Shown piece by piece: positions 16,833 to 31,155 of a DNA stretch of 54,537 nucleotides. Both the position numbers and the translations under genes were made by a program. Source of the stretch: Lentisphaerae bacterium GWF2_49_21 (GTDB lineage: Bacteria > Verrucomicrobiota > Lentisphaeria > Victivallales > GWF2-50-93); NCBI GenBank assembly GCA_001804805.1, contig MHBH01000081.1, positions 1-54,537 of the forward strand, read 5' to 3'. Below the pieces are notes generated by a model. That model saw only the letters and a program-made list of their open reading frames with translations, had not been told where the DNA came from and did no database searches. Position 1 is the stretch's first letter. Each line of letters begins with the position of its first letter.

Positions 16833-17687
16833 ATGACGCTCTGGTTGACACATTTTGTAACGGTCAGGCCTATGGCATCGTTGCCAAGGCTCAGCGCAGT
16901 CTCCTGCGAGAGATATGACACCCCTTCCTATCGTTTCGAAGGAAGGCTGAGGAAGGCCGAGAGGCTCATGGTATTCCAGTACACCCTTTCCGGAGAAGGG
17001 CGTTTTATAGACGACAGGGGCATGCATCGGGTCACGCCCGGCAAGGGGTTCCTATGCGAAGTCTACAATACAACCGCTTCATATTTCTATCCTCCCGGCT
17101 CGGTAAGACCATGGGAATTCATATTTATCACCTTCTGCGGTGCCGCTGCCACCGGAATTGTGAAGGACATCGTACAAAGACACGGTTCCATTTTCGAACT
17201 CGATCCAGAATGCAAGCTGATGAAGCATCTCAAGGCATTCAGCGTGTATGACAGAACATCTGTCAGGATATCATCGTCAGCCGGAGCTTCCCTGGTCTTC
17301 GAACTGCTGATGACGCTGGATGGATCCAAGGAGTCTGCGGTCGCAAAGTCGTCCTCAAACCGGATCGTGTCTGAAGCCTGTACTATGATCGACGATGGGA
17401 TCGCTAGCGGAATTTCCGTGACAAGCCTTGCCAGAAAAATGACCATCTCACGTGAACATTTGACACGGCTCTTCAAGGCTGAGCTAGGACAGACGCCACA
17501 CAAGTACATTGCACGGCACAAGATACGTCTTGCATGTCGACTCCTTAAGGATTCCAACCTGAGCGGAAAGGTCATATGTGAACGCATCGGCGGAATCACA
17601 CACCAGCATTTTGTCCGCATGTTCAAAAATGAGTTCAAAATGACCCCCAGCCAGTTCAAGAAGACAGGCGTAATCCCGATGTGGTAA
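16833..17687 (+). CDS. AraC family transcriptional regulator
   Basis: A 284-residue protein. The N-terminal ~140 residues form an AraC-type cupin sensor (LMVFQYTLSGEGRFIDDRGM, TPGKGFLCEVY, YFYPPGSVRPWEFIFITFCG). The C-terminal double HTH spans ~185-275 (SVTSLARKMTISREHLTRLF, GQTPHKYIARHKIRLACRLL, KVICERIGGITHQHFVRMFK). No clear Shine-Dalgarno precedes ATG 16833; an in-frame ATG at 16872 is an alternative. The next gene is convergent and the methyltransferase upstream is dead, so its target is unclear. Confidence 0.85.
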   Translation: MTLWLTHFVTVRPMASLPRLSAVSCERYDTPSYRFEGRLRKAERLMVFQYTLSGEGRFIDDRGMHRVTPGKGFLCEVYNTTASYFYPPGSVRPWEFIFITFCGAAATGIVKDIVQRHGSIFELDPECKLMKHLKAFSVYDRTSVRISSSAGASLVFELLMTLDGSKESAVAKSSSNRIVSEACTMIDDGIASGISVTSLARKMTISREHLTRLFKAELGQTPHKYIARHKIRLACRLLKDSNLSGKVICERIGGITHQHFVRMFKNEFKMTPSQFKKTGVIPMW

Positions 17688-17823: not shown

Positions 17824-18717
17824 TCAATTCATGATCCGTACCGGATAGCGGCTCAGCATTTTTGCGATTCCGGGAATGCGCGCTAGTGAAACGCCATGCG
17901 GCATCGTGTCCGGCGCGCCAATCGCCGCGTATTTACTCCGCGCAAGATCATGGCACGCCAGAAGTCGCACCCGGACCGGCCCATTTCGGAACCTCGCAAA
18001 GAACTCTCCGGCTTTCCGAATATCCTCTTCCGAATCGTTCCAGCCGGGCATGAGCGGCATTCGGATTTCTAGAGAAATTCCCTGCGCATCCAATTTTCGC
18101 AGATTTTCCAAAATTACTCCATTTGCCGAACCGGTACATTTTCGATGGACTTCCGGATCAATGCCCTTCACATCGAAAAGAACCAGATCCGTCCACGGCA
18201 AAACCCGTTCGAAATTTCGCCACGAAACATTTCCACACGTATCGAGAGCGGTATGAATGCCGCTCTCGTGAAGTTTCCGAAACAGCTCCGCGCAGAACTC
18301 CGGCTGGAGCAGAGGCTCTCCGCCGGAAAGCGTCACCCCACCGCCCGACGTTTCATAGAACATCCGGTCAGCCGTCAGAATCCGGAACGCCTCCGCCACT
18401 GTGATTTTCTGTCCGCAAATCTGCAACGCGCCAGAAGGACATGCCTCCGCGCATTTTCCACAGGCCGTACATCCCGCCCGATCCATGCAATGAATCCCGT
18501 TTTCGATCCGGTGCCGGGGACATACCTCCGCGCATTTTCCGCAGAGAATACACCGTGACGCGGTCAGCTCCAGTTCCGGTTCCCGATGGATCGTTTCGGG
18601 GTTGTGGCACCAGATGCACCGCAACGGGCAGCCCTTTAGAAACAATGTCGTCCGGATTCCCGGACCGTCATGTACCGCAAACGGTTTGATATCTGTATAA
18701 ATCCCTTCCGTTTCCAT
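17824..18717 (-). CDS. Glycyl-radical enzyme activating protein (radical SAM)
   Basis: A 297-residue activase that installs the glycyl radical on the neighbouring enzyme using SAM and a [4Fe-4S] cluster. ATG 18717 is chosen because it lies 2 nt after the stop of the upstream enzyme gene (translational coupling) and begins METEGIYTDIKPFAVHDGPG, the family start. The radical SAM motif is CPLRCIWC (C-x3-C-x2-C). Two ferredoxin-type clusters follow, CILCGKCAEVCPRH and CTACGKCAEACPSG, as in the clostridial/CutD-like activases but not in the short PFL activase. GGGVTLSGGEPLLQPEF is the SAM-binding GGE motif. Confidence 0.93.
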   Translation of the reverse strand: METEGIYTDIKPFAVHDGPGIRTTLFLKGCPLRCIWCHNPETIHREPELELTASRCILCGKCAEVCPRHRIENGIHCMDRAGCTACGKCAEACPSGALQICGQKITVAEAFRILTADRMFYETSGGGVTLSGGEPLLQPEFCAELFRKLHESGIHTALDTCGNVSWRNFERVLPWTDLVLFDVKGIDPEVHRKCTGSANGVILENLRKLDAQGISLEIRMPLMPGWNDSEEDIRKAGEFFARFRNGPVRVRLLACHDLARSKYAAIGAPDTMPHGVSLARIPGIAKMLSRYPVRIMN

Positions 18718-18719
18718 GT

Positions 18720-20873
18720 TCAGACACCCCTTCCGCTTGCTTCCGCTTGCACCAAATAGCTTTCCTGTTCGCTGCGGCTGAGATTGTTCCAGATGACGTT
18801 CCACCCGCAGACGCGGACTTGCAAATCCCGGTATTTTTCCGGATGCGCTTGCGCCTCCTTCAGCGTTGCGATACTGAATACATTGAAATGGATCGCATGT
18901 CCGTCGTGAAGGATGTATGTCAGCATCAATGCTCGCATAGCGTTGAGCCCGTCAGCCCCTGATACCGCCGAGGGATGCAGCATCACGTCGAGCGGAAAAT
19001 CGCCCATGAAATGCGTGGTGTCCAGCTTGAGCACCGACCGGATCGTCGCCGTGACCCCATTCCGGTTGGAACCCGGCTGGACGGAGATGTTCTTGGAAAA
19101 CTCTTCGCCGCTTCGGCGGCCGTCCGGTGTGGCTGGTGCAACCTGTCCCTGAGTAACAAAATTGAACGCGGAGTGCAGCGCCGTGGTATAGAATCCGCCG
19201 CGTCCATTCCGGCGACCATTAATTCGCATCACTGCGGTTTCGACCAGTTCCTGCATGATACGATCCGGCATCTCCCGGTCATTGCCGAATTTATCCGGAT
19301 CGTTCAGAATCAGCGTATGAAGTTCCTCGTACCCTTTCCAGTCGGCATCGAGCGCATTTCGGAACTCTTCCAGCGTGATTCGGTTCGTCTCGTACACGTA
19401 TTTCCGGATCATTGCAAGGGAATTTGTGGCGGTCGCCGGCCCCATCAGCCAGATGTTTGAATTATTGTAAACCGCCCCTTTTGCATACCCGTCAACTCCC
19501 TTTTCGAGACTGGACGCGCTGGTACCGGAAAAGAGCGGCGCGGGATTGACGCGGTCGAGATATTTTTCGAACCCGTTTGCAATCGTAATCGAATCATCGC
19601 AAAACGCTTCGACATTGTCCAGGCATTTCTGCATGAAATCATTGAACGACGGGAATTCCGTACTTTCCCGCATCGTTCTCAATACGATCAGCGGCAAACT
19701 GAGAATGATCGGAGCGGTCTCCACCGCTTTTCCTCGGACCGAATACTCGTAACATCCCTTGATGTCCGCCGTCCGCGCCTCCTCTTCCGAATACCCCGCC
19801 GCAATCATGGTTTTCCGGATGCACGGCTCGCCGACGAAAACGATGCTGCTGCGACCGCTCCGGATCAGGCTCAGCGCCTGATCGATAAAATCGCGCGGGG
19901 TATTTTCCGCGACCTTGATCTGAAGCTTCGGATCGTAAATACCCATCTTTCCGTACTCGTCCAGAATCAGGTACGACAGCTCGTTGATCACACTGGTGCC
20001 GTCCCGGTTCGTTCCGCCGAAATAGAACGGATGACCGACATAATAATGCATGGACGACACTTTGTGCATGAAATTGCGGAAAATCATCCGGACGTCCTGA
20101 CGGGTTAACGCGCCGGATTTCAGATTGCTGACATAGTATGGATAGAGCACGCGGTCGAGATTTCCGAAAGAACGCGTCTGGATACAATCCGCGTATTCCG
20201 AAAGCTGGAAATAAAGCCAGATCTGGAGCAACGCCTCATAAAACGTTTCGGCCGCGCCGTCGCGCAGATGTCGCAATGCTTCGGCAGTCTCCGCACCGCA
20301 GCCAGATTTTTCCGCACGGATGCAGATTCGATCCATCAGCCTTTGTACGGCCTCGTATTCTATCCGAACGGAAGAGAAAAAGTCTCTGTTTTCCGGCGTC
20401 ATTGCGCTTCCGACTCGTTCGAAAAAACGCTTTTCTGCTTCCTCAGCCCGAGCCTGAAGTCCGGAAAAACCTAAGGTAAGCACTGCATCCCAGTCGGGTA
20501 CGGTATGCCAGAAATCGAAAAAGAACTGAACTACTCCGGTCTCATCGAGTTTCTGCCGGTGCGGCAAGCTGTCCTTTAAAACGTTTTCGAACAGGCTTTT
20601 TTCCCAGATGGGCTGTATCGTCTTTTCAAACGGTTTGCGTCCCCATACTCCCAGCGTCACAAACAGATCTTGAGGCGAAGTAGTGATCCGCATATTGTCG
20701 AGAATATACGAAAACGCCTTGGCCTTGATCATCGTGTGCGAACTGTCCTTTTCCCGCTCCAACAACTGGAGAAGGCCCTCTTCGATGGCTTCCGCTGAAA
20801 GCCCCGTCTCAGGATTTCCAGGATTTTCGAAATCATGGTCCAGATATTGTTTGTCCAATTCAAAACCAGTCAT
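18720..20873 (-). CDS. Glycyl radical enzyme of unknown substrate (PFL/GRE superfamily)
   Basis: A 717-residue glycyl radical enzyme. The C-terminal radical loop is VRVCGWNVIW with the glycine at about residue 690, 27 residues from the end as in the family. The thiyl-radical cysteine is C374 in KGCYEYSVRG, with E376 in the position of the general base of GCVE-type dehydratases and lyases. Pyruvate formate-lyase has two adjacent Cys instead, so this is not PFL. The Tyr within GCYEY is unusual. AAAGGAG precedes the ATG by about 10 nt. Its activase is coupled downstream and an AraC gene is divergent. The reaction is probably an anaerobic C-C, C-N or C-O cleavage or a dehydration. Base composition looks richer in CG than the flanking genes. 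Confidence 0.88.
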   Translation of the reverse strand: MTGFELDKQYLDHDFENPGNPETGLSAEAIEEGLLQLLEREKDSSHTMIKAKAFSYILDNMRITTSPQDLFVTLGVWGRKPFEKTIQPIWEKSLFENVLKDSLPHRQKLDETGVVQFFFDFWHTVPDWDAVLTLGFSGLQARAEEAEKRFFERVGSAMTPENRDFFSSVRIEYEAVQRLMDRICIRAEKSGCGAETAEALRHLRDGAAETFYEALLQIWLYFQLSEYADCIQTRSFGNLDRVLYPYYVSNLKSGALTRQDVRMIFRNFMHKVSSMHYYVGHPFYFGGTNRDGTSVINELSYLILDEYGKMGIYDPKLQIKVAENTPRDFIDQALSLIRSGRSSIVFVGEPCIRKTMIAAGYSEEEARTADIKGCYEYSVRGKAVETAPIILSLPLIVLRTMRESTEFPSFNDFMQKCLDNVEAFCDDSITIANGFEKYLDRVNPAPLFSGTSASSLEKGVDGYAKGAVYNNSNIWLMGPATATNSLAMIRKYVYETNRITLEEFRNALDADWKGYEELHTLILNDPDKFGNDREMPDRIMQELVETAVMRINGRRNGRGGFYTTALHSAFNFVTQGQVAPATPDGRRSGEEFSKNISVQPGSNRNGVTATIRSVLKLDTTHFMGDFPLDVMLHPSAVSGADGLNAMRALMLTYILHDGHAIHFNVFSIATLKEAQAHPEKYRDLQVRVCGWNVIWNNLSRSEQESYLVQAEASGRGV

Positions 20874-20883
20874 AGTCGAATTC

Positions 20884-20967
20884 TCCTTTTTTATAGATTA
20901 TACCATCGGACCAGATTTTTCTGAATGTCTGAAACGGACAAAATCATGACTTTTTCAGTATTTTCAG
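20884..20967 (-). promoter_or_regulatory. Divergent control region of the glycyl radical enzyme and AraC genes
   Basis: On the minus strand TATAAT (20897-20902) and a weak TTCAGA -35 (20920-20925) are 17 nt apart. Two direct-repeat pairs lie around the -35: CTGAATGTCTGAA (20921-20933) and, in the opposite orientation, TTCAG twice with a 9-nt period (20954-20958, 20963-20967). Repeated half-sites upstream of a weak -35 are typical of AraC-type activation. Confidence 0.5.
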
Positions 20968-21020
20968 TTTGATTTTTCCATCTTCCAGATTAGTCTTAGG
21001 GAAACAGGGGAGACCATGCA

Positions 21021-21842
21021 ATGCCTCTTTCACATTTTGAAGAAATCGGACTTCTTCCCTTCTGCGGACAGATGGAACTGAAGTTCGTCAATTTTTTCTA
21101 CGGAACGAACTCCGGACGCTGGAAGAGCCGTCATCCGCACAATCGGCTCCTGTTTATTCTGGAGTCCGACGGCGCGAGTACGTTTGGAGATGACTCCTGC
21201 GTCCGTCATGCGGAACGTGGCGATTGGTTTCTGATTCCGCCGTTCCACGAAATACGTCACTACCACAACGAAACCATGCTCCACCTTTCAATCCACTTTA
21301 CGCTGTCGGTCTGCGGCGGGTTCAATCCGATGTCGAAAAATAATATGATTTTCAGTAACCGCGATCTGGTTATCGTAGATACCGTCATGGCGGAAATCCG
21401 AAAGAATGATATGCTGTCGCTTGCCGTAAGCGCGCAAGTCTGGTGCTGGACGGTTCTCCGCCGTGTACTACCGGAGATCACGGGCGCATCGATTTCAGCG
21501 ATCTATGCGAATCCGGTCTACGCGGAGCTGTTTGACTTTCTCTGGAAACACGCATCAGCCCAGACCAGCGTCGGAGATATGGCGACTTTCGCCAAAATGG
21601 GAAAGGAGTCCTTTGTCAAGAAATTCGTCCGCGATGCCGGAATTTCCCCCGGCAAATTCCTAGACCGTATCCTTACCGCCCACGCAGCGAAAATGCTCTC
21701 GGAAAACCGTTGTTCAGTCAAAGAAATCTCCGCCACACTTAATTTCTGCAGCGAATTCTATTTTTCACGTTTTTTTCGCAGACAGACAGACATGTCTCCG
21801 CGCGATTTCCGGAAACGCTTTTCCTCCCGTCCCGTTTCTTAA
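21021..21842 (+). CDS. AraC family transcriptional regulator of the glycyl radical enzyme locus
   Basis: A 273-residue regulator with an N-terminal cupin-like sensor (MELKFVNFFYGTNSGRWKSR, HAERGDWFLIPPFHEIRHYH) and a C-terminal AraC double HTH at ~175-265 (SVGDMATFAKMGKESFVKKF, GISPGKFLDRILTAHAAKML, SVKEISATLNFCSEFYFSRF). It is divergent from the glycyl radical enzyme gene across 147 nt that contain repeated half-sites. It should sense the enzyme's substrate. Its 3' end abuts a truncated insertion element. Confidence 0.88.
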   Translation: MPLSHFEEIGLLPFCGQMELKFVNFFYGTNSGRWKSRHPHNRLLFILESDGASTFGDDSCVRHAERGDWFLIPPFHEIRHYHNETMLHLSIHFTLSVCGGFNPMSKNNMIFSNRDLVIVDTVMAEIRKNDMLSLAVSAQVWCWTVLRRVLPEITGASISAIYANPVYAELFDFLWKHASAQTSVGDMATFAKMGKESFVKKFVRDAGISPGKFLDRILTAHAAKMLSENRCSVKEISATLNFCSEFYFSRFFRRQTDMSPRDFRKRFSSRPVS

Positions 21843-22029
21843 TGGCATGATGCGAAGTCCCAGGAATGGATCGTCCCGCAGGACCGGGCTTCATGACAGG
21901 AGCAAGCCCCGACTCCGAGCGGTTCTTCCATCTCATGAGCGTGGAAGTCCCCACACCGAGCCATCCCGCGCTTGTCATATAGGCTGTGCCAGATCCCTTC
22001 ATGATCCTCGCTATTTCCAATGATTCCAC
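21843..22029 (-). pseudogene. Truncated fourth ORF of the outer IS element
   Basis: From GTG 22029 the minus strand reads VESLEIARIMKGSGTAYMTS and then AGWLGVGTSTLMRWKNRSES with GLAPVMKPGPAGR. This is the N-terminal HTH and the KPGP linker that precede the catalytic part in some multi-ORF rve-type transposons. The family-like sequence stops around 21,880 and what follows is the reverse of the AraC 3' end. The catalytic part is missing. Confidence 0.5.
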
Positions 22030-22034
22030 TGCAT

Positions 22035-22371
22035 TTACCTTCCGATCATTTTTTTACCGGACTCAGCCCGCTCCAACCGGAACTGGAACGCCTTCTCCCG
22101 CAAATCCATCTCGCGGTGGAGCCGCTCGTTCTCCTTCTTCAGCCTTTCGTTCTCCGCAAGCAGGAGATCCGCAGGAGGCTCGGACACCGGAGCCGGAGGC
22201 CTCCCGTCCCTCCATGGCCTTCAGCATCGCCTCCAGCGCCCGTGCCTCCCACTTGTAGTAGACGTCCCTCGAGATCCCCAGCTGCGCAGCCGCCTCCGTG
22301 ACGCTCATCGCCCCCGAGCGCACCTTCATTACCATTTCCAGCATCTCTTTCGGATCCGCTTTCCCTGCCAT
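22035..22371 (-). pseudogene. Frameshifted IS accessory HTH/coiled-coil protein
   Basis: ATG 22371 has GGAGG five nt upstream. The frame reads MAGKADPKEMLEMVMKVRSG then an HTH (VTEAAAQLGISRDVYYKWEA). After MEGREA it moves into a nonsense frame. One nucleotide shift near 22,200 restores PPAPVSEPPADLLLAENERL and a Glu/Lys/Arg coiled coil ending at TAA 22035-22037. The total length is one base over a multiple of three, consistent with a single insertion. A programmed shift is less likely, since no slippery run is present. Confidence 0.65.
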
Positions 22372-22392
22372 ATACACCTCCCGGGACACAGG

Positions 22393-22734
22393 TCATCCCG
22401 GAGCACTTTCCGGCTGGACTCCCTTCTTCCTTGTTATCATGTCCAGCCTCTTCTCCAGCCGCGAAGGCCTCGGATCCGTCTTCCGATCCAGAAGTCTTTC
22501 CAGACGAGTTCCGAGCATCACCTTCTCCGTGCTCTGCCCCGTGTCCAACGCTCTAAACATACCCTCCAGGGCCTGGTTCTGCCAGATGTTCAGCTGCGTC
22601 CACTTGATCGTTAGCTCGCGGCATACCGCCGACGAGTTCTTCTTCTCCGTCCACAGTGTCAGCACCGCACGGCATTTCTCCGACGCGCTGAACGACCGGT
22701 GCATCTCCTTCTGTTCCTCTGTCTTCGTTGTCAT
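22393..22734 (-). CDS. IS accessory protein with helix-turn-helix (OrfA-like)
   Basis: A 113-residue basic protein from ATG 22734, which has AGGAG 7 nt upstream. FSASEKCRAVLTLWTEKKNS and VCRELTIKWTQLNIWQNQAL resemble the recruiter HTH of IS66/IS3 OrfA proteins. The gene starts inside the transposase gene and overlaps its last 182 nt in another frame. It probably binds element ends or regulates transposition. Confidence 0.6.
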   Translation of the reverse strand: MTTKTEEQKEMHRSFSASEKCRAVLTLWTEKKNSSAVCRELTIKWTQLNIWQNQALEGMFRALDTGQSTEKVMLGTRLERLLDRKTDPRPSRLEKRLDMITRKKGVQPESAPG

Positions 22735-23872
22735 ATAATATCTCCTCTGGTTTTTCTGTTTCCTTTCCATCGACACTCATGCTCATCTTCCCTTTGCCAG
22801 CCGTGAGAAGCACTGACCTCTCCCCGATCCTCCCGAAGAGATACAGGCTGCTGGCCGGTTTCCCGCGCAGCGCAAGCTCAAGCGCGTTCTCGGTTATTCC
22901 CTGTTCTATGGCCTTCCGCACTTCCCCTTGCACTTCGAAGAAGCGGTCCGCGGGACACAGCCCTCCTATGCCCTGGTGCGGACGCTGGTGGTTGTAGTAT
23001 TTCACCCAGAGAGCTACGCGCTCCCGGGCCGATTCGAAGGTCTCGAAGCGGGCGCGGTTCAGGAACTCGACGAGTATGGTTTTCCACAAGCGCTCGATCT
23101 TCCCCTTCGTCATCGGATGGTGCGGTCGGCTTTTTATGTGCCGCACGTGATCCTTCTTGAGCTCACGCTCGAACTTCGTGGTTCCCCTCCAGCTCGCGTA
23201 CTGGCGCCCGTTGTCCGTCAGCATCTCCTTTGGAACGCCATATTCCGTTACTGCCCGCCGGTAGACTTCGAGGACGGCATCCGCCGTCTGCGACATGTAC
23301 AGGCCAAGGCCTGTGATGTAGCGGGAGTAGTCATCGACGTAGCCGATCAGATATGCGTTCCTGTCTCCGAGCCGGAACGTGCAGATGTCCGCCTGCCACA
23401 TCTGGTTCGGCGTCGAACGCTCGAAAAAACGCGGCACAGTTATATTCCTCTTCCGTCTGGCCGCAGGTGCAGCATTCGGATTTGGAAGACCGGATTCAGA
23501 GATCACACGGCTCACGGTCCTGGGGCTCGCACCCATCATGAATATGCGCTTCAGAACGTCAGAGATCCTTTTGATCCCCCATTCGGGATTCTCACGCTTT
23601 AGCTTCTCGATCTTCTCCTTCACCGGGACTGCGATTTTCTTCCTGGGATTCTTCATCAGGATCCCGCCGATCTTCAGTCCGTTCTCTCCCTTCTGGAGAT
23701 ACGATTTCCTCCAATTGAATATCGTTGCGTCGGATATCCCGAACTCCGTCGAAAGGGACTTCAAACTGTGTCCGTCCTCGATATTGAGCTTGACAAGCTT
23801 CAGACGGGTTTCAAAATCGTACTTGAAGATATTTGGAGTTCGGCGCGACCCCCCATGGAGCATAGCTGTCAA
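22553..23872 (-). CDS. IS481/IS3-like DDE transposase, 5' end displaced by an IS4 insertion
   Basis: An rve-type transposase. The N-terminal HTH reads KYDFETRLKLVKLNIEDGHS. The catalytic triad is D in WQADICTF, D in EMLTDNGRQY and E in KGKIERLWKT. NHQRPHQGIGGLCPADRF is the usual C-terminal signature. The long tail (~80 residues) overlaps the next ORF. The original start is ATG 25645: its first 23 codons (25577-25645) are separated by the IS4 element, and removing the insertion plus one target copy restores the frame exactly, to about 458 residues. The present ATG 23872 is supplied by the IS4 inverted repeat, so a shortened protein could still be made. Confidence 0.85.
   Translation of the reverse strand: MTAMLHGGSRRTPNIFKYDFETRLKLVKLNIEDGHSLKSLSTEFGISDATIFNWRKSYLQKGENGLKIGGILMKNPRKKIAVPVKEKIEKLKRENPEWGIKRISDVLKRIFMMGASPRTVSRVISESGLPNPNAAPAARRKRNITVPRFFERSTPNQMWQADICTFRLGDRNAYLIGYVDDYSRYITGLGLYMSQTADAVLEVYRRAVTEYGVPKEMLTDNGRQYASWRGTTKFERELKKDHVRHIKSRPHHPMTKGKIERLWKTILVEFLNRARFETFESARERVALWVKYYNHQRPHQGIGGLCPADRFFEVQGEVRKAIEQGITENALELALRGKPASSLYLFGRIGERSVLLTAGKGKMSMSVDGKETEKPEEILYDNEDRGTEGDAPVVQRVGEMPCGADTVDGEEELVGGMPRANDQVDAAEHLAEPGPGGYV
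23850..23860. repeat. Target-site duplication, left copy
   Basis: CCCCCATGGAG directly abuts the left inverted repeat of the IS4 element and recurs at 25566-25576. It encodes part of LHGG of the interrupted transposase on the minus strand. Confidence 0.9.
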
Positions 23873-23904
23873 GCTAAGGGCTTATAGTGCTTGATGTAAA
23901 CACC

Positions 23905-24207
23905 TTACTTTATTTTGAATAGCCTCACATTAAGTTCCACTATCTGCTCGAGAGCCCACTTCGCTTTCTGATAATTGTCAATCATTCTTCTTACCGCCGC
24001 CACGCTGTCTTTTTCGACATACACCGTTCTGGTCTTATTGCCTTCTCCCTTGAAGGTGAGAAGATAACTCACTCTTTCCCCTTCTCCTTTTCTCCCTGCA
24101 TCCAGAACTACTTTGCTGACCGAGCCCTTAAGCATCTCCCCTGTTGCCGACAGCCTCGCCAGCTCCCTCTTGATTTTCTGTTGGATTCTTTTCTTCCCCT
24201 CTTGCAT
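23905..24207 (-). CDS. IS4 passenger protein (DUF6788-like)
   Basis: A 100-residue basic protein from ATG 24207 (MQEGKKRIQQKIKRELARLS). LKGSVSKVVLDAGRKGEGER, then YLLTFKGEGNKTRTVYVEKD, RRMIDNYQKAKWALEQIVEL and LFKIK give the pattern of DUF6788, small proteins found beside some IS transposases. The usual Cys pair in the middle of that family is not seen here. It is divergent from the transposase across a 25-bp palindrome. Its function is unknown. Confidence 0.6.
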   Translation of the reverse strand: MQEGKKRIQQKIKRELARLSATGEMLKGSVSKVVLDAGRKGEGERVSYLLTFKGEGNKTRTVYVEKDSVAAVRRMIDNYQKAKWALEQIVELNVRLFKIK

Positions 24208-24230
24208 TCTCCAGCCCAGCCTTTCTTTTA

Positions 24231-24255
24231 TATATAAGTATATTATACTTATATA
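24231..24255. promoter_or_regulatory. 25-bp palindrome between the two IS4 genes
   Basis: TATATAAGTATA (24231-24242) and its exact reverse complement TATACTTATATA (24244-24255) flank one central T. It lies between divergent genes and contains -10-like boxes on both strands. It is probably a shared bidirectional promoter or operator. Confidence 0.55.
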
Positions 24256-24269
24256 ACAAAGGAGGCCTC

Positions 24270-25016
24270 TTGTCAACAGTTGAAGTGGAAATGTCGCGCT
24301 TTTTTTCAAACAGGGAAATGGAGGCTCTTGCCAGAAGTACGGCGTTTGTAGAGAGGCGTTCGCCAATAACGGGCTTCAAATTCCTCGTCACCTTCACCAC
24401 GGGATTGCTGAACACGCCGGAAGGGACACTGGCGCAGCTTGCGGCTTTCCTCTCAGGCGCATGCCAGACTGCGGTATCGGCCCAGGCGGTCGACGAGCGG
24501 ATCAATACCATGGCCATGGAGTTCATGAGACAGTGCCTTCAAAAATCCATTTCCATGTCAAGACGCCCTCTGGATTTAGACGAGGGAGTCCTCGTCGGCT
24601 TCGATCACGTCTATGTCATTGACAGCACAAACTTCGAGCTTCACCCATCGCTCGCCGACATCTTCAAGGGAAACGGGGGAGGAGCGTCAAAGGCCTCGAT
24701 GAGAATACAGCTTGTGCTGGACTACCTGGAAGGGACGCTGCATGTCGAGATCGGGGATACCAAGCTTTCAGATCCAAAAACGCTTCACGACATCGTGGAG
24801 CGTCGTGGGCTGGACATGTCCGGAAACTGCCTCTACCTCTCGGATCTCGGCTATTTCAAGACATCAATGTTTGAGAAGATAGATGCCGTTCCAGGCCAGT
24901 ATTTCCTGTCGAAACTCATGTTTGGAGTGGGGATCGGGGATGAAAGCGGAGGACAGATCAACCTGCATGACATGTTAAAAAAAAGCTTCCCGACAATGTC
25001 GTCAACCAGAGGATAA
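24270..25016 (+). CDS. IS4-family transposase, N-terminal part (frameshifted)
   Basis: From TTG 24270 (AAAGGAGG lies 4 nt upstream; ATG 24291 is an alternative) the frame encodes FFSNREMEALARSTAFVERR, ITGFKFLVTFTTGLLNTPEG and the DDE-1 region VYVIDSTNFELHPSLADIFK, followed by NCLYLSDLGYFKTSMFEKID with the second Asp (YLSDLGYF). The frame ends soon after an A8 run at 24977-24984. Shifting -1 there continues directly into the next ORF, giving about 427 residues as usual for IS4 transposases. Confidence 0.85.
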   Translation: MSTVEVEMSRFFSNREMEALARSTAFVERRSPITGFKFLVTFTTGLLNTPEGTLAQLAAFLSGACQTAVSAQAVDERINTMAMEFMRQCLQKSISMSRRPLDLDEGVLVGFDHVYVIDSTNFELHPSLADIFKGNGGGASKASMRIQLVLDYLEGTLHVEIGDTKLSDPKTLHDIVERRGLDMSGNCLYLSDLGYFKTSMFEKIDAVPGQYFLSKLMFGVGIGDESGGQINLHDMLKKSFPTMSSTRG

Positions 25017-25030
25017 GGAAAGCAAACGAG

Positions 25031-25552
25031 GTGTCGGAAAGAAAAGGCGGAATAACAGATGCCTACAGGCTCTTCCTCCAATACGCGCTGTTCATAACGA
25101 ATCTACCTATGCAGTATGATGTCGGAATGCTCTTCGTCCTCTACAGGATCAGATGGCGGATCGAACTTGTCTTCAAAACATGGAAGTCGATACTGGCAAT
25201 CCACAAAATCAGGTCGGCAAAAAGCGAGCGGGTCATGTGCGAGGTCTATGGAAAACTCATCCTCGCCGCCCTGTCGTCCATGATGTGCGCAGCTGCAGAA
25301 GCATATCTTGACGGCGCAGTCATCAGCCTTCACAGAGCCATGCGCCACCTGAGAGTGGTTGCTGTGTCGTGGGCGCTCTCCATAATGGACGGACTTCTCT
25401 CGCACGCAAGGTTTCTGAACAAACTGAAGCAGGATATAGCGCGACTATGCAGAAAGCGGAGCCAGAAAAACAAAAAGACCATCGAGCAACTGTTAAAGGA
25501 GACTCTTTTCCCGAATAAGAAGAGGATACATGGATCAATCAGAAACTCTTAG
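25031..25552 (+). CDS. IS4-family transposase, C-terminal part (frameshifted)
   Basis: The homologous frame is open from the A8 run (K-K-L-P-D-N-V-V-N-Q-R-I-R-K) through GTG 25031. It contains YRIRWRIELVFKTWKSILAI, the Y-x2-R-W-x2-E-x3-K (YREK-like) signature of IS4 transposases carrying the third catalytic acid. The C-terminus is basic and ends just inside the right inverted repeat. It is unlikely to act alone; it needs the N-terminal half by frameshift. Confidence 0.8.
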   Translation: MSERKGGITDAYRLFLQYALFITNLPMQYDVGMLFVLYRIRWRIELVFKTWKSILAIHKIRSAKSERVMCEVYGKLILAALSSMMCAAAEAYLDGAVISLHRAMRHLRVVAVSWALSIMDGLLSHARFLNKLKQDIARLCRKRSQKNKKTIEQLLKETLFPNKKRIHGSIRNS

Positions 25553-26363: not shown

Positions 26364-26630
26364 ATGGCAGATAAGCATCGCCCATCAAGAAGAAAGAGCA
26401 GATCAAGCTCAAAAGGCAGTGTGTCTACTAAGACATGCAACTTTCGAGTTTGGTGTAATGCCCGGTGGAGAGAGATTTTGGGATTTGCGGCATTGCTTGG
26501 AGTAATTGAGACCTGTCTTCAAAAGGCAGGCACAATCTTCGAGTATGTTGAAAAATTCATAAATTATCTCTTCATTTGTTTATATCTCCTTCAGAAGAGG
26601 AATCATATATATGTCAATAGCTCCTCCTAA
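26364..26630 (+). CDS. Small basic membrane protein preceding the reverse transcriptase
   Basis: An 88-residue protein not recognised as a known family. ATG 26364 follows AGAAAGGAGGTGAT, a 14-nt perfect match to the anti-Shine-Dalgarno 16S tail, 8 nt from GGAGG to ATG. Residues 1-24 are Ser/Arg/Lys rich (KHRPSRRKSRSSSKGS). Then come two hydrophobic segments, EILGFAALLGVIETCL and FINYLFICLYLL, probably membrane helices. It overlaps the reverse transcriptase start by 20 nt, so the two are translationally coupled. Position and shape fit an effector or accessory protein of a retron-type defence unit; this is inference. Confidence 0.6.
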   Translation: MADKHRPSRRKSRSSSKGSVSTKTCNFRVWCNARWREILGFAALLGVIETCLQKAGTIFEYVEKFINYLFICLYLLQKRNHIYVNSSS

Positions 26631-27483
26631 AAGCATCGAGGAGCTTGCGCGCCGTCTTGAAATGGACTGTGTCAAGCTTATCTCCATTTCTGTAAAAGCT
26701 CCATTACTTTATGGCAGAAAGGAAATCCCCCGAGAAGGGAAACCACCAAGAATCATTGAACCTCCACACAAGAATCTAAAAGAACTTCAAAGAAAATTGC
26801 TTGATACAACCTTAATTCACCTCAGATGTGACGACTCCCTGTTTGCCCGAAAAGGAACGAACACCGTTGATGCTGTCATTCCTCATATATCAAAACCAAT
26901 TCTTATAACGATGGATATTAAAAACTTCTTCCCAAGCGTATCTCATTTTCAAGTCAAGACCGCCTTAAAAAGCCGCGGTATTCCTGACGATGTTGCAAAA
27001 TTGATTACCAGATTGACAACTCACAGGCATCATCTCCCTCAAGGTGCGCCTACTAGCGTGGAGTTGGGGCGGCTTGTCATGCATCCTGTAGCCCTGGAGG
27101 TAAAGCGTGCTTTAGATGCGACAGGAACAAATTATGCCTTTTCAATGTATGTCGACGATGTTATAATTAGCGGACCCGTTGGTCTAAAACGCATGATAGG
27201 AATAATTTATAAAATCTATGAAAGACATGGCTTCAATTTAGATAAATCAATTAAAATGAGAACAATGCGTCTCGGTAAAGACGTTCAAGAAGCACTCGGA
27301 ATTCGAATTGACAGAGGGATAGAACCTGGAGAAGCTATTCGTTTAAAACTGGCTCACGCAAATAGTAATAGCAAAGAGCATAAGGGGCTTCGCTCATATG
27401 CTTCGCACCTGCAAAATAGAAATAAAAAATATTCGGAGAGGAAAAAGTGTAATGTTGGTGGTCGTTGCAAGTTGTGTCATTGA
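26611..27483 (+). CDS. Retron-like reverse transcriptase
   Basis: A 290-residue RNA-directed DNA polymerase. RT motifs in order are PPRIIEPPHKNLKELQRKLL (residues ~47-66), MDIKNFFPSV with D102, LPQGAPTS (Q144), and MYVDDVIISG with the catalytic D182-D183. Length and QGAPTS favour retron or Abi/DRT-type RTs rather than group II introns (no maturase or endonuclease) or diversity-generating RTs. The canonical retron NAxxH and VTG motifs are not clear; ALGIRIDRGIEP occupies the VTG position. So this is a divergent lineage. It is coupled to the small membrane protein upstream and sits in an integrase island. Confidence 0.85.
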   Translation: MSIAPPKSIEELARRLEMDCVKLISISVKAPLLYGRKEIPREGKPPRIIEPPHKNLKELQRKLLDTTLIHLRCDDSLFARKGTNTVDAVIPHISKPILITMDIKNFFPSVSHFQVKTALKSRGIPDDVAKLITRLTTHRHHLPQGAPTSVELGRLVMHPVALEVKRALDATGTNYAFSMYVDDVIISGPVGLKRMIGIIYKIYERHGFNLDKSIKMRTMRLGKDVQEALGIRIDRGIEPGEAIRLKLAHANSNSKEHKGLRSYASHLQNRNKKYSERKKCNVGGRCKLCH

Positions 27484-29586: not shown

Positions 29587-30909
29587 CTATGCAGTCAGTA
29601 TCTTCAATATTTCCTGTTCCTTCTCCGTCAAGTTTCCAGAAGATTTTATGAGTTCAACGGCTCTGGAAAGCCTGCTTTTCAACAGGGATTCTGGATTTTC
29701 AGAGGGCTGCTCTTTGACAACAATTCCATCTTCTGCAGAGGAAATCATTGGCAGGGCTGCAAATATCTTGCCTTTGACCTCATGAGTCAGATGCGTGTAA
29801 TAATCCTGGAGCGTCTTGACATCGTCCCCCATGACCTGTGAAAGAATCATCACCGGAACTCCTCTTGATGCCGCAAATGTCGCAAACGTATGGCGCAGCG
29901 AATGGAACCCGTACTGATTGGCCTTCCTCAGCCTCTGCCCTTTCCCCGAAACCTCGACGGTGGTTTCAAAGCCGTTATGGGTGAATACCTTCATGATCCC
30001 ATATCGGATGGAGGATTTTTCCTGGTAGAGCCTTGCAAGATTCGGCATGACAAAGCCATCTGTTCCACCGTCCCGCTGCTCCGCCTTTTTCAACTCCCTT
30101 GAAAGCATGGGATGGATTGGAATTTCGACCTCCCTCTGGATTTTCCTTGTCTTGACAGGGATGAGCCTGATGACATTCTGCTTGAATCTGACGCTGTCCC
30201 ATTTCAGCAATGCCGCATCGGCAAGCCTGAGCCCCGTCCACATGCCGATATTGAAGAGAAGCCTCATCTCCTCCTTGAATGGGATTGAAAGAGCCGGATC
30301 GTCGAAGGAGTTCAGGAGCTTCTCGACCTCCTCCTCCGTCAGCGCCTGCCTGGCGGTCATCCTGATCTTTTCCTTCCGCTTGATATTGTCACGGCACCAT
30401 ACGTTGTCGCGGAAACCCAGTACGATCCTGAAAATAAGATGCAGGGCTTTCACATGGTGGTTGAAGGTGTTCCAGCTGATCCCGTCAGCCCACAGCTTCC
30501 TCGCATACTCCTTTGCCATGTCCACGGTAATATCGTTGAGCAGCACCGCCTGAGGATAGTGTTCATTTGTCCATGAAGTAAATTTCTCCAAGCTCCTCTT
30601 GTAGTTCTTCAGCGTTCCGGGGCTCGAATTCGGACGGGACGGATCCCTCGTGTAGTTCTCCCATGCGGAACTGAGCCTGGCTTTCCTGTCGTTGAGCAGC
30701 CCCCTGGCCTCGGCGATATGGACCGCTATCTGGGCCTTCGTCCTTGCATCGATGGGTTTCAGGAATTCCCCGGCCTTTTCCTCCGCCGACCTGAAATCAC
30801 GGCACTTGAGGGAGATGACCTTGCGGCTCTCCCCTATGTCGTACTGGAGGTAGTAGACTCCTCCGCGCTTGAAGATGTGCCCCTGTCCTTTTGACCTTCT
30901 TTTACCCAT
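29587..30909 (-). CDS. Tyrosine-type site-specific recombinase/integrase
   Basis: A 440-residue integrase taken from ATG 30909 (GKRRSKGQGHIFKRGGVYYL); no strong Shine-Dalgarno is visible, and a TTG 28 codons upstream is the alternative. It has an N-terminal arm-type domain, a SAM-like core-binding domain (YKRSLEKFTSWTNEHYPQAV) and a catalytic domain. The catalytic residues are R in TGLRLADAALLKWD, H-x-x-R in FHSLRHTFATFAASRG and the tyrosine in LQDYYTHLTHE. It is the likely mover of the island; the island would end near mnmG. No tRNA attachment site is visible. Confidence 0.9.
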   Translation of the reverse strand: MGKRRSKGQGHIFKRGGVYYLQYDIGESRKVISLKCRDFRSAEEKAGEFLKPIDARTKAQIAVHIAEARGLLNDRKARLSSAWENYTRDPSRPNSSPGTLKNYKRSLEKFTSWTNEHYPQAVLLNDITVDMAKEYARKLWADGISWNTFNHHVKALHLIFRIVLGFRDNVWCRDNIKRKEKIRMTARQALTEEEVEKLLNSFDDPALSIPFKEEMRLLFNIGMWTGLRLADAALLKWDSVRFKQNVIRLIPVKTRKIQREVEIPIHPMLSRELKKAEQRDGGTDGFVMPNLARLYQEKSSIRYGIMKVFTHNGFETTVEVSGKGQRLRKANQYGFHSLRHTFATFAASRGVPVMILSQVMGDDVKTLQDYYTHLTHEVKGKIFAALPMISSAEDGIVVKEQPSENPESLLKSRLSRAVELIKSSGNLTEKEQEILKILTA

Positions 30910-31155
30910 GGTGGTTGAAATTATCAGCTCCTGTTTTATGTTGTCTTTGCATGTCGCCGGATCAAAGACAGATATTGCTTTATGCACACACAATAAGCAT
31001 ACAACAGGGAAACAGGCATGTCAAGAGCAAAAACGCCAATCCGATGATATATGAGGCTAAAATAACTTGTATAAACCATGAAGAGCAGGTCGGAAATAGA
31101 TTTATTTATATAGACTGGAAGCCTGTGCTGCATTGCTAGGACAATTGCCGTTGGT

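Follow-up and report, generated by a model that had tools for sequence, protein, structure and literature searches.

Which reaction does the glycyl radical enzyme (GRE) encoded at positions 18720–20873 of contig MHBH01000081.1 from Lentisphaerae bacterium GWF2_49_21 catalyze, and on what substrate? A sequence-only reading of this stretch of DNA (54,537 nucleotides, hereafter the window) had singled the protein out as an orphan GRE with unusual active-site loops. The answer proposed here draws on the gene itself, its operon, its predicted fold, a clade of related proteins, and the gene neighborhoods of that clade.

The GRE gene and its loops

The gene is an uninterrupted, complete open reading frame on the reverse strand, whose 717-residue product matches both Pfam domains of the superfamily, PFL-like (PF02901, E 3.9e-80) and Gly_radical (PF01228, E 2.1e-19), and carries both the thiyl Cys and the radical Gly. 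The thiyl loop (DIKGCYEYSVRGK) contains Cys374-Tyr375-Glu376, and the radical residue, Gly690, lies in the loop RVCGWN. The GCYEY and VCGWN motifs that had first drawn attention are borne out by the reading frame, which reads GCYEYSVRG and RVCGWN. The window gene is an intact member of the oxygen-sensitive GRE superfamily.

The tyrosine between Cys and Glu is as unusual as had been claimed. In the alignment, the reference thiyl loops are GCVET in HypD (trans-4-hydroxy-L-proline dehydratase) and in PflD (8id0), GCVEP in glycerol dehydratase and CutC (choline TMA-lyase), and GCVLH in the arylacetate decarboxylase 7e7l, and the radical loop of the reference enzymes reads RVAGYS. Since Tyr is found in 58/64 members of the clade described below, the Cys-x-Glu (CxE) arrangement in 61/64, and the Gly-Trp pair of the radical loop in 64/64, the window motif is neither chance nor a sequencing error.

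The protein lies outside every characterized equivalog: its best subfamily model gives 271 bits against a cut-off of 678, and it reaches 264.8 bits on the HypD model NF043068 (cut-off 1100), 198.8 on the CutC model TIGR04394 (1050), about 167 on the decarboxylase equivalog models (1100–1150), and 56 on the pyruvate formate-lyase (PFL) model TIGR01255 (994). GREs present in the plasmid records searched are distant only, at ~25% identity.

Activase, regulators, and genomic surroundings

Two nucleotides separate the GRE stop codon from the ATG (at 18717) of the next gene on the same strand, the junction reading TGA-AC-ATG. This gene (17824–18717, reverse strand) encodes the cognate radical-SAM activating enzyme expected of the GRE superfamily, a 297-residue protein with a CX3CX2C motif, two 4Fe-4S ferredoxin motifs, and Pfam matches to Radical_SAM and Fer4. 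It scores 329 bits on the GRE-activase subfamily model TIGR02494 (cut-off 174) and below the cut-off of every equivalog model shown. In genome G018, a GRE/activase pair that is 71%/71% identical to the window pair is likewise adjacent.

An AraC-family regulator (21021–21842, forward strand; HTH_18/HTH_AraC) is transcribed divergently from the GRE and is probably the inducer-sensing activator of the operon. The 147-bp region between the two genes (20874–21020) contains, on inspection of the sequence, a TATAAT element and a ribosome-binding site resembling AAAGGAG, both ahead of the GRE start codon. A second AraC-family gene (16833–17687, forward strand; HTH match) is convergent with the activase, and its role in the GRE module is uncertain.

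The operon consists of the GRE and its activase only and lacks aldehyde dehydrogenase, aminotransferase, and sulfite-related genes. Shell genes of bacterial microcompartments, said earlier to be missing nearby, are absent from the whole 5.9-Mb assembly (PF00936), and the enzyme is not a microcompartment-associated GRE (GRM). The companion claim that no known substrate genes lie nearby is right for the GRE operon and needs qualifying for its wider surroundings: a sugar-catabolism island lies at 0.8–16 kb of the window, past the second AraC gene, and a close orthologue elsewhere sits among carbohydrate genes (below). The island encodes GntR/LacI-type, IclR, and LacI regulators along with MFS, SDR, FAD oxidoreductase, GlcNAc 2-epimerase-like, DUF4434, xylose-isomerase-like TIM barrel, and two Gfo/Idh proteins. 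It was rejected as part of the GRE operon on account of its separate regulators and the convergent AraC gene in between. The two GH32 genes of the genome lie outside this contig.

Immediately upstream of the GRE/AraC pair are transposase and insertion-sequence genes (21990–25552), which are consistent with an accessory, mobile region. Further along are a 290-residue reverse transcriptase (26611–27483, RVT_1), possibly retron-like, and a phage-type integrase (29587–30993).

Predicted fold

An AlphaFold2 model built from a 16-sequence alignment has a pLDDT of 85 and a pTM of 0.86. Its best PDB matches by Foldseek and VIA-align 2 are all GREs, with no close relative among them; diol/glycerol dehydratases, HypD, PflD, CutC, IseG/HpsG, and arylacetate decarboxylase align with VIA Z scores of ~36–43 at 19–26% identity. 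The ten-stranded barrel of the GRE fold is recovered in the model, with GRE matches extending across 615–702 residues at Z ~29–43, and the next structural matches are anaerobic ribonucleotide reductases at Z ~22. The structure, as predicted, confirms the superfamily rather than a specific function, and the protein clusters with no solved or characterized reference.

Distribution and phylogeny

Relatives at E≤1e-70 occur in 29/289 genomes of the window's phylum, and relatives at E≤1e-80 in 20/245 genomes of the Clostridia order that includes locus L007. No copy at E≤1e-60 turned up in the seven remaining genomes of the window's family, of which three belong to the same genus, and this suggests an accessory gene.

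In a maximum-likelihood tree, 64 proteins form a single clade (SH-aLRT 100, stem 0.52), a number that is a lower bound because members were collected by similarity to the window protein. HypD, glycerol dehydratase, PflD/8id0, CutC, arylacetate decarboxylase, and further outgroups fall outside it, as do the five other GREs of the window genome. The informative point of the tree is that the clade contains zero characterized references, the references being five structures/enzymes with the PflD/YbiW type represented by 8id0 alone; clustering with a characterized GRE of the same pocket did not occur. The window protein belongs to a fully supported subclade (support 100) of eight members, including those of loci L052 to L058. 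The clade, whose carriers are anaerobic and gut bacteria, frequently has several paralogues per genome and recurs in gut- and rumen-derived lineages. Given its size and paralogues, a conserved partner activase, and an AraC regulator, the label "orphan" does not fit.

Several observations concern GREs in and around the clade. The 3.1-Mb metagenome-assembled genome (MAG) of Clostridia bacterium RGIG7291 (locus L007) has 27–29 GRE candidates, 15 of which match the window protein at E≤1e-40, an extreme GRE expansion. In the same genome, another GRE lying close to one of the clade (L007:882–3071) has the loops DLCQDIN (Cys-Gln-Asp) and RLWGVS. A tandem of three clade GREs lies at L081:4779–12774. 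The five other GREs of the window genome (L001, L002, L003, L004, and L006) carry the odd thiyl loops GCIE, GCGE, TCVE, GCTE, and GCNE and lie on long branches. Lentisphaeria/Victivallales MAGs (L011–L019 minus L012 and L016) encode separate, shorter GREs of ~710 residues with GCNE and RVSGFSA loops; this group is tentatively the sister of the clade (SH-aLRT 94).

A literature search, which largely did not reach subscription papers, returned nothing on the clade, and the libraries searched hold neither a solved structure nor a curated functional model for it. In 2018 the GRE family numbered 14,288 sequences, many of them functionally uncharacterized (PMC6181972), so the clade may already figure in previous similarity networks as a cluster without a name. 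The novelty is at the level of the subfamily, the superfamily being known.

A clade-wide residue signature

In the alignment, nine residues are invariant in 64/64 clade members: Asp120, His123, Arg234, Lys316, Cys374, Asp629, Gln685, Gly690, and Trp691. Six more are nearly so (Glu226 in 59, Tyr375 in 58, Lys594 in 60, Asn595 in 62, Cys689 in 60, and Asn692 in 61), and position 376 is Glu in the 61 CxE members and Asp in two more. Among 20 GREs from outside the clade, Arg234, Lys316, Asp629, and Gln685 are found in none, and Trp691 in one. As a separate observation, the residue just before the radical Gly, Cys in most of the clade, is Ala, Ser, or Gly in other GREs.

The CxE motif is common to GRE eliminases, and in HypD its glutamate, Glu436, and His160 are both essential and lie 2.5 Å apart (PMC7077986). 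The clade carries the corresponding pair of CxE and partner His: Glu376 of the window protein aligns with HypD Glu436, and His123 aligns with glycerol dehydratase His164, while the correspondence of His123 to HypD His160 does not come from direct alignment because the HypD sequence used starts at residue 252. Arg234 occupies HypD position 280, two residues past the catalytic Asp278 on strand β-1. Since 4-hydroxyphenylacetate decarboxylase also has CxE, the motif alone is no proof of elimination.

Gene neighborhoods across the clade

Of the clade GREs, 38/65 have an activase gene no more than 1.5 kb away on their own strand, and a divergent AraC gene lies within 500 bp of 21/65, 16 of which have the activase too. 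At control loci from the same genomes, AraC-type proteins account for 6/272 open reading frames, and the linkage of activase and AraC to clade GREs holds against these controls. In high-GC loci, open reading frames were ranked by amino-acid composition to guard against shadow frames. No neighbors besides activase and AraC are conserved across the clade.

Carbohydrate genes recur around individual members. In L052, the 71%-identical orthologue, a single strand carries GRE, activase, AraC, GH32, PfkB kinase, and sugar transporter (Sugar_tr) genes in a run. Fructose was considered as the substrate from this GH32 and set aside, GH32 by itself being insufficient to identify a substrate. Elsewhere, the neighbors include GH78, a DUF4838/CBM9 protein, and GH39 (L053), GH28 (L054), GH94 and GH20 (L063), SASA or GDSL esterases (acetylesterases; L069, L072, L079, and L132), and GH42-type proteins in a second batch of loci. 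Several clade GREs adjoin housekeeping genes such as gyrA and EF-Ts. In the Pfam tallies of nearest neighbors, which cover the 25 commonest families per batch and undercount singletons in clade and control alike, carbohydrate families exceed random loci of the same genomes only modestly. The survey of homologous loci that had been proposed as a check thus yields two conserved partners and, for carbohydrate genes, an excess that is suggestive of a link to sugars, not strong. Taken together, the comparative neighborhoods point weakly to carbohydrate substrates.

Comparison with characterized GREs

The window GRE resembles the CxE eliminases yet belongs to none of the named ones tried; that it is not a standard CutC, glycerol, or hydroxyproline dehydratase, as first read from the loops, is upheld by the loops, models, residues, and tree. 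HypD (6vxc) is its best PDB sequence match (E 1.1e-60) and shares the whole fold, the thiyl Cys, the CxE Glu, the active-site His, the radical Gly, and a dedicated activase. The HypD residues with roles at the hydroxyproline site, D278, D339, S334, T645, and Y450 (PMC7077986), are however replaced by Q232, F283, Y278, A569, and I390, the loop is GCYE rather than GCVE, and HypD falls outside the clade. The best Foldseek matches are glycerol dehydratase (1r8w) and 1,2-propanediol dehydratase (5i2g), and equivalents of glycerol dehydratase His164, Cys433, Glu435, and Tyr339 are kept. In contrast, His281, Ser282, and Asp447, which we take to be glycerol contacts, are Q232, T233, and A387 in the window protein; these dehydratases also have no counterpart to R234 and K316, and shell genes are missing from the window genome.

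These two relatives bear on one alternative, namely a CxE lyase acting on a non-carbohydrate (an amino acid derivative, amine, sulfonate, or small diol) and merely housed in sugar-rich genomes. Their rank among the closest solved relatives speaks for it, as do the varied neighborhoods with their modest carbohydrate excess, whereas the absence of the substrate residues of both enzymes, the lack of shell genes, and an operon without aldehyde dehydrogenase, aminotransferase, or sulfite-related genes speak against it. We regard this alternative as unlikely.

Next come the PflD/YbiW anhydrohexitol-6-phosphate dehydratases (8id0, 8id7), which are likewise CxE GREs and have sugar derivatives as substrates. 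A second alternative is a dehydratase of sugar phosphates or anhydrosugar phosphates that works in the manner of these enzymes (on 1,5-anhydromannitol- or anhydroglucitol-6-phosphate). In its favor, 8id0, solved with 1,5-anhydromannitol-6-phosphate, is the second best PDB sequence match (E 2.8e-60) and among the top structural matches (Z 39.6); R234 and K316, both invariant, could provide a phosphate site, and a PfkB sugar kinase lies in the L052 gene run. However, 8id0 is outside the clade, has neither Arg at 234 nor Lys at 316, in keeping with the 20 non-clade GREs, and is just ~23% identical (about 21–24% for the two structures). We regard this reading as unlikely, too.

The remaining references are more distant. 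CutC shares the CxE eliminase fold (Z ~38) but lies far from the window GRE in the tree and its model cut-off is missed. A decarboxylase or a GRE that forms or cleaves C-C bonds, rather than an eliminase, is improbable: Arg234 and Lys316 could bind a carboxylate and one decarboxylase has CxE, but 7e7l lies elsewhere in the tree without the Glu, and the decarboxylase models score far below cut-off. PflB (pyruvate formate-lyase) shares the superfamily fold (Z ~32), but its adjacent Cys-Cys pair is absent from the window GRE, which has Cys-x-Glu instead; the early exclusion of PFL stands. A degenerate, non-catalytic paralogue, suggested by a loop unlike every reference sequence, is scarcely credible given that all catalytic residues are present and strongly conserved over 64 members and that so many have an adjacent activase.

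Proposed function and mechanism

The preferred reading, to which we give about even chances, is that the window GRE would be an inducible, stand-alone radical lyase/dehydratase of the CxE type, acting on a substrate derived from carbohydrate; that the substrate is sugar-derived in some form is probable. The catalytic residues and their conservation, the fold, the operon, and the clade are established directly. From these we infer an elimination reaction, a carbohydrate as substrate, and the parts played by individual residues, as follows.

The AraC protein would detect the substrate, or a sugar related to it, and switch on the GRE-activase operon. The activase, judging by its family, would use SAM and a 4Fe-4S cluster to generate a glycyl radical at Gly690. 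This radical would pass to Cys374, and the resulting thiyl would abstract hydrogen from a carbon that carries a hydroxyl in a small substrate of carbohydrate origin, with Glu376, paired with His123, removing or guiding a proton. A leaving group on the neighboring carbon, water or another O-linked group, would then be eliminated as in diol dehydratases. Arg234 and possibly Lys316 may bind the substrate through an anionic or polar group, and Tyr375, in place of the usual Val, probably reshapes the pocket floor. Since conserved downstream enzymes are absent, the product would presumably enter ordinary sugar metabolism.

A bolder version, which we consider doubtful, holds that the clade comprises carbohydrate-specific GREs with a reaction new to GREs and paralogues tuned to different glycans. 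Examples of such a reaction are the cleavage of a glycosidic or ester-linked C-O bond by radical elimination, or the deoxygenation of a sugar acid. Cys689 of the Cys-Gly-Trp-Asn loop might participate in such chemistry.

Significance

GREs run several defining reactions of gut anaerobes, among them those of choline, hydroxyproline, and taurine/isethionate, and many abundant GREs have no known function (PMC11574389). The present clade is a tractable target among GREs, with a clear residue signature, a self-contained operon, a candidate sensor, and recurrence in gut and rumen lineages. If its members do act on sugars, the anaerobic breakdown of glycans would gain a radical route.
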